Origin: Corynebacterium simulans | GTDB taxonomy: Bacteria > Actinomycetota > Actinomycetes > Mycobacteriales > Mycobacteriaceae | NCBI RefSeq assembly: GCF_001586215.1 | Contig: NZ_CP014634.1 | Location: forward strand, 1,984,001 to 2,048,000 | Direction: 5' to 3' | Length of the DNA: 64,000 nucleotides | Part shown: piece by piece, positions 7,501-28,556 of the stretch | Layout of the letters: each line of letters starts with the position of its first letter | Numbering within the stretch: position 1 is the first letter of the stretch | Notes under the pieces: model-generated | Database searches by the model: none | What the model was told of the DNA's origin: nothing | The model's input: only the letters and a program-made list of their open reading frames with translations | Translations under genes and position numbers: made by a program

Positions 7501-9195
7501 ATGACCGCTGTGGCGCCAAGGCTCGACGATTACGTCGCGCCAACTCGTCCGGAGCCTACTGGCAATGCCAAGACCGGCTCTAAGGCTTGGGTAATGCTCA
7601 CCACCACCGACCACAAGCAGCTGGGCATCATGTACTTGATTATGTCCTTCAGCTTCTTCTTCCTCGGTGGCTTCATGGCCCTGTTGATTCGTGCTGAGCT
7701 TTTCAGCCCGGGTCTGCAGTTCCTGTCCAACGAGCAGTTCAACCAGCTGTTCACCATGCACGGCACTGTGATGCTGCTGCTGTTCGCAACTCCCGTTGTG
7801 TGGGGTTTCGGTAACTACATCCTGCCGCTGCAGATTGGCGCGCCGGACGTTGCCTTCCCACGTCTGAACGCATTTGGCTTCTGGATCACCCTGACTGGCG
7901 GCATCGTTATGCTGCTGGGCTTTGTCACCCCGGGCGGTGCAGCTGACTTCGGCTGGACCATGTACGTCCCGCTTGCCGACGCCGTCCACACCCCAGGCAT
8001 CGGTGCCGACATGTGGATTGTCGGTGTTGGCGCTACCGGTGTTGGCACCATTGCTTCCGCAGTCAACATGATCACCACCATCCTCACCCTGCGTGCGCCT
8101 GGCATGACCATGTTCCGCCTGCCGGTATTCACCTGGTGTATCTTCACTGCTTCCGTCATCGTTCTGATGATCTTCCCGCTGCTGACCTCTGCAGCACTGG
8201 GCATCCTGTATGACCGCAAGCTCGGCGGCCACATCTACGACTCCGCTAACGGCGGCGCCATCCTGTGGCAGCACCTCTTCTGGTTCTTCGGCCACCCTGA
8301 GGTTTACGTCCTGGCACTTCCGTTCTTCGGCGTTATCTCCGAGGTCGTTCCGGTCTTCTCCCGTAAGCCAGTCTTTGGCTACATCGGCCTGGTGTTCGCG
8401 GTTCTGGCCATCGGCTCCCTGTCCATGGCTGTGTGGGCGCACCACATGTTCGTTACCGGCGCTATCCTGCTGCCGTTCTTCTCCTTCATGACCTTCCTCA
8501 TCGCGGTTCCGACCGGCGTTAAGTTCTTCAACTGGGTAGGCACCATGTGGAAGGGCCACATCACCTGGGATACCCCGATGATCTTCGCTATGGGCTTCAT
8601 GTCCACCTTCCTCTTCGGCGGTATGACCGGCGTTATGCTCGCTTCCCCGGCACTGGACTTCCACCTTGCTGAGTCCTACTTCCTGATTGCGCACTTCCAC
8701 TACACCCTGTTCGGTACGGTTGTGTTCTCCGCGTTCGCAGGTCTGTACTTCTGGTTCCCGAAGATGACCGGCCGCATGCTCGACGAGCGCCTCGGCAAGA
8801 TTCACTTCTGGCTGACCTTCATCGGCTTCCACGGCACCTTCCTTATCCAGCACTGGGTGGGCAACATGGGTATGCCACGTCGTTACGCTGACTACCTCGA
8901 GTCTGATGGCTTCACCGTCTACAACCAGATCTCCACGATCTTCTCCTTCGTTCTCGGCGCATCCGTTATCCCGCTGGTTTGGAACGTCTTCAAGTCCTGG
9001 CGCTACGGCGAGATCGTTACCGTTGATGACCCTTGGGGCTACGGTAACTCCCTCGAGTGGGCTACCTCCTGCCCGCCGCCGCGCCACAACTTCGTTTCCC
9101 TGCCGCGTATCCGCTCTGAGCGTCCTGCCTTCGAGCTGCACTACCCGCACATGGTTAAGCGCATGCGCGAGGAAGCACACGTCGGCCACCACTAG
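7501..9195 (+). CDS. ctaD: Cytochrome aa3 oxidase subunit I
   Basis: Catalytic subunit (564 residues) of the aa3-type terminal oxidase that reduces oxygen to water and pumps protons across the cytoplasmic membrane. Many membrane helices are present. Expected ligands are all seen: His87 (heme a, TMHGTVM), His265 with Tyr269 (CuB and the His-Tyr crosslink, FFGHPEVY), His314 and His315 (CuB, AHHMF), His398 (heme a3) and His400 (heme a) in AHFHY. The start ATG 7501 is set by AGGAGGAAATTA; the upstream extension to 7375 has no family residues. It is a single-gene unit closed by a terminator. Subunits II and III are not in the window, as usual for corynebacteria, where ctaD stands apart. Confidence 0.97.
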
Positions 9196-24780: not shown

Positions 24781-25281
24781 AGCTTGCGAAAATCGCGATC
24801 GGAAGTGGAAACAATCGGGCGCAGAATGTGATTTTGTGCCCGATTTATCCTGTTGCTGAAGTAAATAAACACAATGTGCATTAAGAATCTGAGCTGGTGT
24901 TTAGCTATAGAAATTCGCAACAATGGTTTTCTTCCGATCGGCAGGTAATTCGGAAATCGCTGATAAAAAAGCTATCAATGCGATGTGGGGAAGCTTACGA
25001 TCGGGGGCAATTTACCCCCGATCTAAACGGTATGTCCGTCTTTTATGAAATTGATGACCTGCGCGGGCATCGAATAAACACGGATGTGCTCTGTTACACA
25101 ATTGCTCAAGTAGGAGGGTGTAGTCACGGCTCCTAAAATTGGAGACAAGAGGCGCTCGTCGCTTAGAAGGTGAGACCAAAGTTTCCGGCAGGAAACGCGT
25201 GGAACACAGTGACAGGAAACAGCGGCAAGGCGCCCCGAATCACTTGAATGAAATGTGTCAAACAAGAAGGGAGTCACAATC
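24781..25281 (+). promoter_or_regulatory. Long leader/promoter region of the pfl operon
   Basis: About 500 bases, AT-richer than its surroundings. An open frame at 24897-25136 has no ribosome-binding site or known product. It contains two perfect inverted repeats: GATCGGGGG / CCCCCGATC (24999-25007, 25015-25023, 7-base loop, no T tail) and GTTTCC-GGCA-GGAAAC (25191-25206). They may be operators or mRNA structures; anaerobic control of pfl would be expected but no known binding motif is certain. Confidence 0.45.
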
Positions 25282-27372
25282 GTGACCACCGCAACGCAAC
25301 CGCTGCAGTTTGAAGCCTGGAAAGGATTCGAGCCTGGTCCATGGACTGAAGGCATCAACGTCCGGGACTTCATCCAGCGCAACTACACTCCGTACGATGG
25401 AGACGCTTCCTTCCTCGCGGGCCCAACCGAAAAGACCCAGCGCACGTGGGACACCCTCGAAAAGGACTACCTGTCAGTAGAGCGCCAAAAGCGCATTTTC
25501 GATGTGGATACCCACACCCCAACTGACATCGATGCTTTCCCGGCCGGCTACATCTCTGAGGATGACGACGTCATCGTCGGCCTGCAGACCGACACTCCGC
25601 TCAAGCGTGCCATGATGCCAAACGGCGGCTGGCGCATGGTTGAGCAGGCCATCCGTGAGGCAGGCAAGGAGCCGGAGGAAGACATCAAGAAGATCTTCAC
25701 CCGCTACCGCAAGACCCACAACGACGCTGTCTTCGATATCTACACCCCACGTATTCGTGCGGCTCGATCATCACACATCATCACCGGTCTGCCTGACGCA
25801 TACGGTCGCGGCCGCATCATCGGTGACTACCGCCGCGTGGCTCTCTACGGTGTCGACTACCTGATTGCCGAGAAGGACGCCAAGAAGCACGAGGTCGGCG
25901 AGCTCGGTTTCAGCGAGCACTGGGCACGCTACCGCGAGGAGCACGCAGAGCAGATCAAGGCTCTGAAGAAGCTCAAGGTCATGGCACAGTCCTACGGCTT
26001 CGACATCTCCGGTCCTGCAAAGACTGCTCACGAAGCTGTTCAGTGGACCTACTTCGGCTACTTGGCTTCCATCAAGTCCCAGGACGGCGCCGCAATGTCC
26101 ATCGGCCGCCTGTCTGCATTCTTCGACTGCTACTTCGAGCGCGACCTCGCAGCCGGCATCATCACCGAAGAGGACGCACAGGAAATCATCGACCAGCTCG
26201 TTCTGAAGCTGCGCATCGTTCGCTTCCTGCGCACCGAGGACTACGACCAGATCTTCTCCGGCGACCCATACTGGGCAACTTGGTCTGACGCTGGTTTCGG
26301 CAATGACGGCCGCCACATGGTTACCAAGACCTCCTTCCGTCTGCTGCAGACCCTGGTCAACCTTGGCCCGTCACCAGAGCCAAACATCACCATTTTCTGG
26401 GACCCAGCACTGCCAGAGGGCTACAAGAAGTTCTGTGCTCACATCTCGATCACCACTTCTTCCATCCAGTACGAGTCTGACAAGCAGATTCGTGAGCAGT
26501 GGGGCGACGACGCAGCGATTGCTTGCTGTGTTTCCCCGATGGAAGTTGGCAAGCAGATGCAGTTCTTCGGCGCTCGCGTTAACGCTGCAAAGGCCCTGCT
26601 CTACGCCATCAACGGCGGCCGCGACGAGGTCACCGGCAAGCAGGTTGTCGAGGGCTACGACGCTATCCAGGGCGACGGCCCGCTCGACTTCGACGAGGTT
26701 TGGAAGAAGTACGAGGAGATGCTCGACTGGGTAGTCGGCACCTACGTCGAGGCTCTGAACATCATCCACTTCTGCCACGATAAGTACGCTTACGAGGCAA
26801 TCGAGATGGCGCTGCACGATTCCAACATCGTCCGCTCCATGGGCTGCGGCATCGCTGGTCTGTCCATCGTGGCTGACTCGCTGTCCGCCATCAAGTACGC
26901 TAAGGTTTACCCGGTCCGTGACGAGTCCGGCCTCATCGTTGACTACAAGACCGAGGGCGACTTCCCGTTCTACGGCAACGATGATGACCGCGCCGACGAC
27001 ATCGCTGCAACCATCGTCCACACCGTGATGGATAAGATTAAGGCCATCCCGATGTACCGCAACGCAATTCCAACCCAGTCCGTTCTGACCATTACCTCCA
27101 ACGTGGTCTACGGCAAGGCAACCGGTGCTTTCCCATCCGGCCACAAGGCAGGTACCCCGTTCGCACCGGGCGCAAACCCAGAGAACGGCGCCGACAGCCA
27201 CGGCATGGTCGCTTCCATGCTGTCGGTGGGCAAGCTGGACTACAAGGATGCGTTGGATGGCATCTCGCTGACCAACACCATTACCCCGTCTGGTCTCGGC
27301 CGCACTCCGGAGGAGCGCATCGACAACCTGGTGGGCGTGCTGGACGCAGGCTTCATCATGGAGTCCGAGTAA
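25282..27372 (+). CDS. pflB: Pyruvate formate-lyase catalytic part, lacking the glycyl-radical domain
   Basis: Converts pyruvate and CoA to acetyl-CoA and formate during anaerobic growth. The protein has 696 residues instead of about 760. The two active-site cysteines are Cys415-Cys416 ([12 protein letters not shown]). It ends [18 protein letters not shown], just where the glycine-radical domain begins in E. coli PflB. That missing domain is encoded by the next gene (27432). The start is GTG 25282, with GGGAG 8 bases upstream; an upstream in-frame GTG at 25255 lacks a site. There is no sign of sequence damage at the 3' end: a clean stop, a 59-base gap and a good ribosome-binding site follow. 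The operon is pflB, glycyl-radical subunit, pflA. Confidence 0.93.
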
Positions 27373-27431
27373 GCCACCCCGGCAATCAAGTTTCCCCCAT
27401 TCAACCTCAACTCACTTCAAGGAGTATCACC

Positions 27432-27683
27432 ATGGCAACCCCAACTTTCGACGAGCGCTTGGCAGACATGAAGGCTAACCGCGACGAGCACCAGATGAAC
27501 GCGGGCCTGTACCACGCAAACATCAACGTTCTGGACAAGGCAACCCTCGAGGACGCTGTCGAGCACCCAGAGAAGTACCCGAACCTGACCGTCCGTGTTT
27601 CTGGCTACGCAGTTAACTTCGTCAAGCTGACCAAGGAGCAGCAGCTCGACGTTATCTCCCGTACCTTCCACCAGGGTTCATAA
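27432..27683 (+). CDS. grcA: Separate glycyl-radical subunit of pyruvate formate-lyase (GrcA/YfiD-like)
   Basis: 83-residue protein carrying the glycyl-radical loop RVSGYAVNF with Gly58 as the radical site, preceded by the HPEKYPNLT strand and followed by [14 protein letters not shown]. From about residue 20 it aligns with the last 60 or so residues of E. coli PflB. The first 19 residues ([19 protein letters not shown]) are extra. In E. coli the similar YfiD replaces an oxygen-damaged domain of an intact PflB. Here PflB has no such domain, so this protein should be essential for activity. AAGGAG precedes the ATG. It sits between pflB and pflA; pflA starts 3 bases after its stop. Confidence 0.92.
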
Positions 27684-27686
27684 AAA

Positions 27687-28556
27687 ATGGCTGATGGCAT
27701 TACTGGAGTCGTGCACCTCGACCCCCAAGCGGGCGAGAAGGTGCGCGGTGCGGCCGTCGGCCTAGGTACCGATAACTCCCTCGACGAGATCAAGCGCCCG
27801 GAGCTCATGGAGGCACGCCGTACTGGTGATATCGCCTTAGTGCACTCCTGGGAGCTGGTGACCTCCGTCGATGGTCCCGGTACCCGCATGACGATGTTCA
27901 TGTCCGGTTGTCCACTGCGCTGTCAGTACTGCCACAACCCAGACACCATGGAGATGAAGGTGGGCACCCTCGAGCGCATCGAGGACGTCGTCAAGCGCAT
28001 CAAGCGCTACAAGCCCATCTTCAAGGCTTCCGGTGGCGGTCTGACCATCTCAGGTGGCGAGCCGTTGTTCCAGATTGCGTTCACGCGCCGCGTGCTCAAG
28101 GAAGTCCACGATGCGGGTATCCATACCACCATCGATACCTCGGGCTTTTTGGGTATGCGCCTGCGGGACGAGGACTTGGAAAACATCGATCTTGTGCTTC
28201 TCGACGTCAAGTCTGGCGACGAAGAAACCTACAAAAAGGTCACTCGCCGCGAGCTGCAGCCAACCATCGATTTCGGTGACCGGCTGTCGGCGATGGGTAA
28301 GCCGGTGTGGATCCGCTTCGTAGTGGTTCCAGGCCTGACGGATTCCCCGGAAAATGTGCGAAACGTCGCCGAGATCGTGGGGCGTTGGAGCAACAACGTC
28401 GAGCGTATCGAGGTGCTTCCGTTCCACAACATGGGTGCTGATAAGTGGCATGAACTGGGCTATCCGTACACCCTCGAGGATACGAAGCCGCCAAAGCCGG
28501 AGGATATCGAAGCAATTCGAGACGTCTTCCGTGCAAAGGGATTCACCGTTTACTAA
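27687..28556 (+). CDS. pflA: Pyruvate formate-lyase activating enzyme (radical SAM)
   Basis: Radical SAM enzyme (289 residues) that takes a hydrogen from the glycine of the PFL radical domain. The 4Fe-4S motif is CPLRCQYC (Cys75, Cys79, Cys82), followed by SGGGLTISGGEP for SAM binding. An N-terminal extension of about 50 residues precedes the catalytic domain, which starts near GDIALVHSWELV. Its substrate glycine lies on the adjacent 83-residue protein. It starts 3 bases after that gene, in TAAAAAATG, with translation probably coupled. A terminator follows. Confidence 0.95.
   Translation: MADGITGVVHLDPQAGEKVRGAAVGLGTDNSLDEIKRPELMEARRTGDIALVHSWELVTSVDGPGTRMTMFMSGCPLRCQYCHNPDTMEMKVGTLERIEDVVKRIKRYKPIFKASGGGLTISGGEPLFQIAFTRRVLKEVHDAGIHTTIDTSGFLGMRLRDEDLENIDLVLLDVKSGDEETYKKVTRRELQPTIDFGDRLSAMGKPVWIRFVVVPGLTDSPENVRNVAEIVGRWSNNVERIEVLPFHNMGADKWHELGYPYTLEDTKPPKPEDIEAIRDVFRAKGFTVY

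Follow-up and report, generated by a model that had tools for sequence, protein, structure and literature searches.

A probable two-chain pyruvate formate-lyase with a separate glycyl-radical subunit in Corynebacterium simulans and other Actinomycetota

Introduction

Pyruvate formate-lyase (PFL), the textbook example of a glycyl-radical enzyme, is vulnerable to oxygen, which cleaves it at the radical glycine. At one locus of Corynebacterium simulans, the gene for the catalytic chain ends short of that glycine, which raises the question of whether a damaged PFL gene lies beside a spare part or whether the enzyme works as two chains. The parts themselves are already known, the radical protein families GrcA2 and GrcA3 having been named by NCBI as "autonomous cofactors", i.e., spare parts. 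A two-chain PFL that evolved twice appears to be undescribed in the open-access literature that we searched. If the two-chain reading is true, the oxygen-vulnerable part could be replaced alone, the annotation of both families would change along with the view of fermentation in actinobacteria common on the skin and in the mouth and gut, and an oxygen-repairable design would become available for glycyl-radical enzyme engineering. A natural two-chain PFL would also make testable what keeps a free radical domain in place, which the E. coli tPFL:YfiD pair does poorly, and whether damage is repaired by subunit exchange; a separate small radical subunit would do the same for how the radical domain moves out of the active site to be activated.

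Results

The radical segment of PFL is encoded by the next gene

The window, i.e., the whole stretch of 64,000 nucleotides of C. simulans DNA that was analyzed, contains the following features.

25282..27372, + strand: pflB, catalytic chain of pyruvate formate-lyase, 696 aa, without the glycyl-radical segment (TIGR01255 match)
26524..26529, + strand: codons of the catalytic cysteine pair Cys415-Cys416, read from the sequence (motif ACCVSPM)
27373..27431, + strand: spacer of 59 bases, with the ribosome-binding sequence AAGGAG at 27419-27424 (sequence)
27432..27683, + strand: grcA2, separate glycyl-radical subunit, 83 aa (NF008341 match)
27432..27500, + strand: GrcA2 residues 1-23, added N-terminal segment, proposed docking segment (conserved Arg9/Met13/Arg17; predicted helix 6-19)
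27603..27605, + strand: codon of the radical glycine Gly58 (E. coli Gly734), within RVSGYA (sequence and alignment)
27687..28556, + strand: pflA, radical-SAM activating enzyme, 289 aa (TIGR02493 match)

The pflB start codon is the GTG at 25282, with AAGGGAG 8 nt upstream. AAGGAG lies 7 nt 5′ of the grcA2 start, and the ribosome-binding sequence of pflA, which follows the grcA2 stop after a gap of 3 bases, looks weak. An earlier, sequence-only reading had described a PflB of 696 residues with a cysteine pair at 415/416, an 83-residue protein encoded 59 bases downstream with RVSGYA and Gly58, and pflA 3 bases after the small gene, all of which is borne out by the sequence (pflA at 27687-28556).

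In a profile scan begun at the upstream GTG at 25255, PflB filled positions 1-680 of the 744 positions of TIGR01255 (996.9 bits, against a cut-off of 994.2), and the small protein, GrcA2, filled positions 685-742. The Gly_radical domain (PF01228) is divided between the two, with positions 1-65 in PflB and 66-106 in GrcA2. PflB aligns with residues 9-695 of E. coli PFL (1h16) and does stop, as had been claimed, where the radical domain begins, its end aligning with residue 695. GrcA2 aligns with residues 700-757 of E. coli PFL, Gly58 corresponding to Gly734, and with residues 69-125 of YfiD. Its alignment with the missing domain had been placed from about residue 20; the alignment itself held, but the unmatched part is residues 1-23 and not 1-19. 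Together, the two halves cover the PFL model nearly without loss. PflB has the adjacent catalytic cysteines that characterize pyruvate formate-lyase (Cys415/416) and lacks a glycyl-radical segment in the same chain, the segment being supplied by the next gene. Compared with E. coli PflB (1h16, 2pfl), the catalytic chain (9-695), the radical segment (700-757), the cysteine pair, and the glycine are all kept; however, what is one chain in E. coli is encoded here by two genes, and the second chain has 23 extra N-terminal residues.

Among the family profiles, GrcA2 passed the cut-off of NF008341 (165.3 bits, cut-off 145) and failed those of TIGR04365, the YfiD/GrcA spare part (86.5, cut-off 170), and of NF038360, GrcA3 (101.3, cut-off 158), while PflA passed that of TIGR02493 (313.6 bits, cut-off 231.75). 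The 83-aa protein of the window is a member of NCBIfam GrcA2 (NF008341), whose name implies a spare part, whereas the gene content here points to a required subunit. It resembles E. coli YfiD/GrcA (6owr; TIGR04365) in being a radical domain that stands alone, the alignment beginning at YfiD residue 69, and differs from it in that YfiD rescues an existing full-length PFL and that the N-terminal half of YfiD does not align with GrcA2.

No other PFL was found in the genome

The C. simulans genome is a single contig of 2.74 Mb, and the window PflB shares 98% identity with a PflB recorded for C. simulans. In a profile search of the whole of it, pflB was the sole PFL-like match, with no second PFL-like gene and no Gly_radical (PF01228) match beyond the PflB and GrcA2 halves. 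A full-length PflB elsewhere in the genome had been named beforehand as fatal to the sequence-only reading; it was searched for and none was found, and with it no full-length PFL available for a YfiD-type rescue. A class III ribonucleotide reductase, an enzyme distinct from PFL, is present (NRDD match) and absent from the Gly_radical search listing. A cox1-type oxidase match is located at about 7621-8952 of the window and, together with the anaerobic enzymes, would fit a facultative lifestyle.

The split is shared across Corynebacterium

In a survey that sampled the genus with 201 Corynebacterium genomes, a PFL-like gene was present in 96, and the DNA of all 96 loci was taken. Full-length PflB in related genomes, which the sequence-only reading had proposed as a check, proved to be rare within this genus: 94 of the 96 encode the catalytic chain and the radical part in two genes, one genome (G121) has PflB and the radical part in one open frame, and in another (G130) contig ends interrupt the locus, PflB still ending before a separate radical gene. 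An assembly artefact was rejected as an explanation, the split being present in 94 genomes, many of them in one contig.

All 94 split loci have ACCVSPM in PflB and RVSGYA in GrcA2. The spacer ranges from 3 to 287 bases (median of 41) and occurs in all three frames (39/23/32, in-frame in 39), and the pflB stop codon is TAA in 65 loci, TAG in 21, and TGA in 8. This variation, and the starts, stops, and ribosome-binding sites that both genes of the window have of their own, agree with the earlier claim that there is no frameshift. The grcA2 gene starts with ATG in 92 loci and GTG in 2, preceded by AGGAG or longer in 86, by a four-letter Shine-Dalgarno-like word in 6, and by none in 2. GrcA2 is 83 aa long in 92 of the 94 loci (one of 84, one of 86), a common length that is partly by construction, as starts were chosen nearest to the position aligned with Met1 of the window protein. 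A pflA match on the same strand was present in 93 of the 94 loci (none in the stretch examined at L021), its first possible start lying −8 to 262 bases from the grcA2 stop. According to 92 comparisons with the window, grcA2 is under purifying selection (median pN of 0.117, pS of 0.508).

The fused frame belongs to Corynebacterium sp. Marseille-P4321 (G121; L102:1684-4095, L227), in which PflB and GrcA2 are joined via change or loss of the pflB stop codon, in one draft record where a sequencing error is possible. In Corynebacterium phocae (G170; L087, L240), grcA2 and pflA are intact, and a C-terminal remnant is all that can be recognized of pflB. Of the 201 genomes, 102 gave a Gly_radical match, namely, the 96 PFL-bearing ones, C. 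phocae, and five others in which the match comes from another protein only (G043, G087, G091, G144, and G156). A hidden full-length PFL was considered as the source of the full-length Gly_radical matches in some Corynebacterium genomes, of which the one that was read (L033) has motifs that we take to be NrdD-like, and it looks like NrdD.

Reach and origin of the split in Actinomycetes

The split is not unique to the window genome and reaches widely across genera of Actinomycetes. In a sample of the class, the PFL model matched in 30 of 296 genomes, with 25 full-length genes, two split (the genome of the window and G281), and three partial (G218, G208, and G273). Nine of the 149 genomes in the family of G281 matched the PFL model, four of them split (G281, G590, G508, and G553) and five full-length. 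A Schaalia GrcA2 query of a named genome collection returned at least 579 relatives, of which the best 80 were examined, some on contigs shared with the genus sample. Among these 80, separate ORFs were found at 24 loci and one ORF at 54, including the natural Corynebacterium fusion (L102), while L103 (Brachybacterium) was split on reading and L114 (Rarobacter) had no nearby PflB. The 24 separate-ORF loci include a Trueperella MAG in which pflB is interrupted (L093), a locus cut by its contig (L094), and the C. phocae remnant (L087). Taken with the genus reads, the best 80 place the split in Corynebacterium, Schaalia, Actinomyces, Propionibacterium, Rothia, Trueperella, Dermabacter, Brachybacterium, and a Cellulomonadaceae MAG.

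Across the break, the sequence of the closest fused relatives, e.g., Cellulomonas citrea and Sanguibacter, is LDAG-x-x-EGL(F/Y)HANINVL. The split proteins mostly end a few residues past LDAGF and restart with about 23 new residues followed by GL(Y/F)HANINVL.

As to whether the split arose once within Actinomycetes, the trees disagree. For the larger one, 196 distinct chains were reduced to 127 (<93% identity) and then to 85 rows by removing 42 by hand, namely, 41 full-length rows and L063, which had no radical match and the script label "split". This quick tree gave one full/split change, with the fused row uncounted, weak deciding branches, and long branches flagged. A hand-picked tree of 60 rows that included Coriobacteriia gave four full/split changes, three of them in Actinomycetes. 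The N-terminal segment common to the split proteins favors a single origin.

Several loci depart from the usual arrangement. In a Cellulomonadaceae MAG (L101:4995-5010), a 4-base overlap between pflB and grcA2 suggests that their translation is coupled. Rarobacter faecitabidus (L114:4866-5183) carries an orphan GrcA-like protein of 105 aa with a different N-terminus; neither pflB nor pflA was matched in the 10 kb examined, and the protein may be a genuine spare part. Contigs filed as viral contain PFL genes whose single ORF includes the radical segment (L166-L172, L168 being incomplete) or small GrcA-like ORFs (L163-L165).

A second split in Coriobacteriia

A GrcA2 search of 246 genomes of the phylum also detected small radical ORFs in Coriobacteriia, which are mostly strict anaerobes and gut bacteria. 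PFL scored above the cut-off in 74 of 197 Coriobacteriia genomes, with 16 full-length genes and 59 ending at positions 665-670 (one genome has both). A separate radical gene was present in all 21 of the 59 shortened loci that were read (L251-L257 and L274-L287). Both radical genes tested passed the cut-off of GrcA3 (NF038360), which is also the name given in source records to such proteins in Collinsella and Enorma. The pair follows the same two-chain logic as the window locus; however, its break lies about 11-16 model positions earlier (665-670 versus 680-685), GrcA3 still has the residues that directly precede the break of the window locus, and PflB bears its own C-terminal tail, with DCGCC as the final residues in 10 of the 14 whose ends were read. 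Placing all split rows of both classes in one clade was rejected (AU p 5e-45), and the split in Coriobacteriia (Collinsella and kin) appears, from these sequence comparisons, to be a second fission of separate origin. In Fannyhessea vaginae, a member of Coriobacteriia, grcA and pflB rank first and third among the lowered genes of one experiment (−17.96 and −14.31; expression list of PMC11979175), and their joint lowering, read from that list alone, is as expected of subunits.

A candidate docking segment in GrcA2

The suggestion of the sequence-only reading that the extra N-terminal residues may be a docking segment gained support from three features. Arg9, Met13, and Arg17 are invariant in all 75 distinct 83-aa GrcA2 proteins of Corynebacterium and likewise in a wider set of 31; AlphaFold predicts a helix over residues 6-19, both for GrcA2 alone, with middling confidence (72 for residues 1-10, 68 for residues 11-20), and in the fused protein, with low confidence (block means of 47 and 53); and the segment (1-23) is absent from the fused relatives that were read. 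In the 92 comparisons with the window, the median pN/pS is 0.25/0.47 for codons 2-23 and 0.06/0.51 for codons 24-83, which indicates that the segment evolves faster than the radical domain yet is constrained. The AlphaFold model of the Marseille-P4321 fused protein (803 residues) is PFL-like through the radical domain, a fold search matching its residues 7-803 to residues 4-757 of 2pfl (TM 0.90/0.95). Residues 1-23 are a plausible candidate for docking on PflB, and this segment probably replaces the lost covalent tether. An N-terminal extension of PflA was considered as its partner and rejected, as fused relatives have an extension of similar length (chosen set of loci).

An engineered E. coli pair, tPFL(1-695):YfiD, is cut at the same residue and is catalytically competent, its apparent kcat reaching 121 per second after activation, according to PMC8683613. 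The pair is artificial, however, and its activation was poor, 32-fold below that of cPFL:YfiD, with no detectable binding of YfiD to tPFL. The natural pair must have overcome such a binding problem, for which the N-terminal segment is the one candidate that we can name. A counterpoint to the docking role comes from the same source: removal of the YfiD N-terminus raised tPFL activation 5.4-fold.

Discussion

Taken together, the locus encodes, with a probability that we put at about 0.86, an obligate two-chain pyruvate formate-lyase. The formation and activity of a PflB-GrcA2 complex are inferred from gene structure, conservation, and fit to the PFL fold. PflB would provide the barrel, the substrate sites, and Cys415/416, and GrcA2 would dock as an obligate subunit at the site of the missing C-terminal strand, glycyl loop, and helix. 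PflA would take hydrogen from Gly58 of the docked GrcA2, and the radical would move on to the cysteines, pyruvate and CoA then yielding acetyl-CoA and formate. Oxygen would cut GrcA2 at Gly58 and leave PflB intact to accept a new 83-residue subunit. As for its origin, the arrangement would stem from gene fission in Actinomycetes, after which GrcA2 would have carried a new conserved N-terminal segment, probably in place of the covalent link. Against a two-chain enzyme, one species has a fusion by stop-codon loss, and C. phocae keeps grcA2 and pflA with a pflB remnant.

For the exchange of GrcA2 after oxygen damage, the odds are about even. The oxygen-exchange advantage is the weakest link of the proposal, because the second split sits in mostly anaerobic gut bacteria. 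A two-chain PFL could instead owe its split to neutral change, with a radical subunit that never exchanges and an oxygen tolerance that is unimproved, a variant compatible with the two-chain core. Gene fission can be neutral, a natural fusion exists, and the mostly strictly anaerobic Coriobacteriia weaken the oxygen argument. Selection is suggested, however, by the fact that the gene was broken independently in two lineages at almost one position and that the added segment is conserved, and we consider the neutral variant a real possibility with the balance somewhat against it. In a more general form, the exchange proposal holds that, within Actinomycetota, PFL was broken on two or more occasions into a durable catalytic chain and a dedicated radical subunit, a new lineage-specific segment taking the place of the covalent link each time. 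GrcA2 and GrcA3 would then be obligate and exchangeable, oxygen would cut only the small chain, and activity would return by exchange without rebuilding the large one; we would not lean either way on this generalization.

The remaining alternatives concern the two-chain core itself. GrcA2 might be a YfiD-like spare part that rescues an oxygen-cut full-length PFL, with the shortened PflB as a damaged gene. This is how E. coli YfiD acts (PMC8683613) and how NCBI names GrcA2 ("autonomous glycyl radical cofactor"); yet a full-length PFL was not found in the genome, and the shortened gene, with its catalytic residues, is common to 94 of the 96 PFL-bearing Corynebacterium genomes, which makes the spare part very improbable. 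GrcA2 reads as an obligate subunit because no full-length PFL was found in the genome and 94 of 96 PFL-bearing Corynebacterium genomes share the split, and the earlier claim to that effect is, with the purifying selection on grcA2, well supported by gene content. In E. coli, PflB G734A produced formate only with GrcA present (PMC12338860). PMC8683613 lists only YfiD and Y06I as validated GrcAs at that time and speculates that other GrcAs repair other enzymes. Joining of PflB and the radical domain at translation, by programmed frameshift or stop-codon readthrough giving some full-length PFL, can be dismissed almost entirely despite the 39 in-frame spacers and the true fusion in one species, because the spacers of the 94 loci vary in length, frame, and stop codon, and in 86 of them the small gene has AGGAG or a longer such sequence ahead of it.

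A PDB search with the window PflB returned 38lb as match no. 1 and 38la as no. 4, both named "Formate acetyltransferase". Neither 38la_A nor 38lb_A was among the PDB matches of the radical proteins, the radical segment was undetected in either, and neither entry was among the best 50 matches of either fold search (library to April 2026). With 1329 bits against a Coriobacteriia split PflB, 38lb is nearer to the Coriobacteriia catalytic chain than to the window PflB. No publication on the two entries was found, nor was a paper on split PFL listed in the searches of the open-access literature. Both entries look recent, and others may be working on split PFL.
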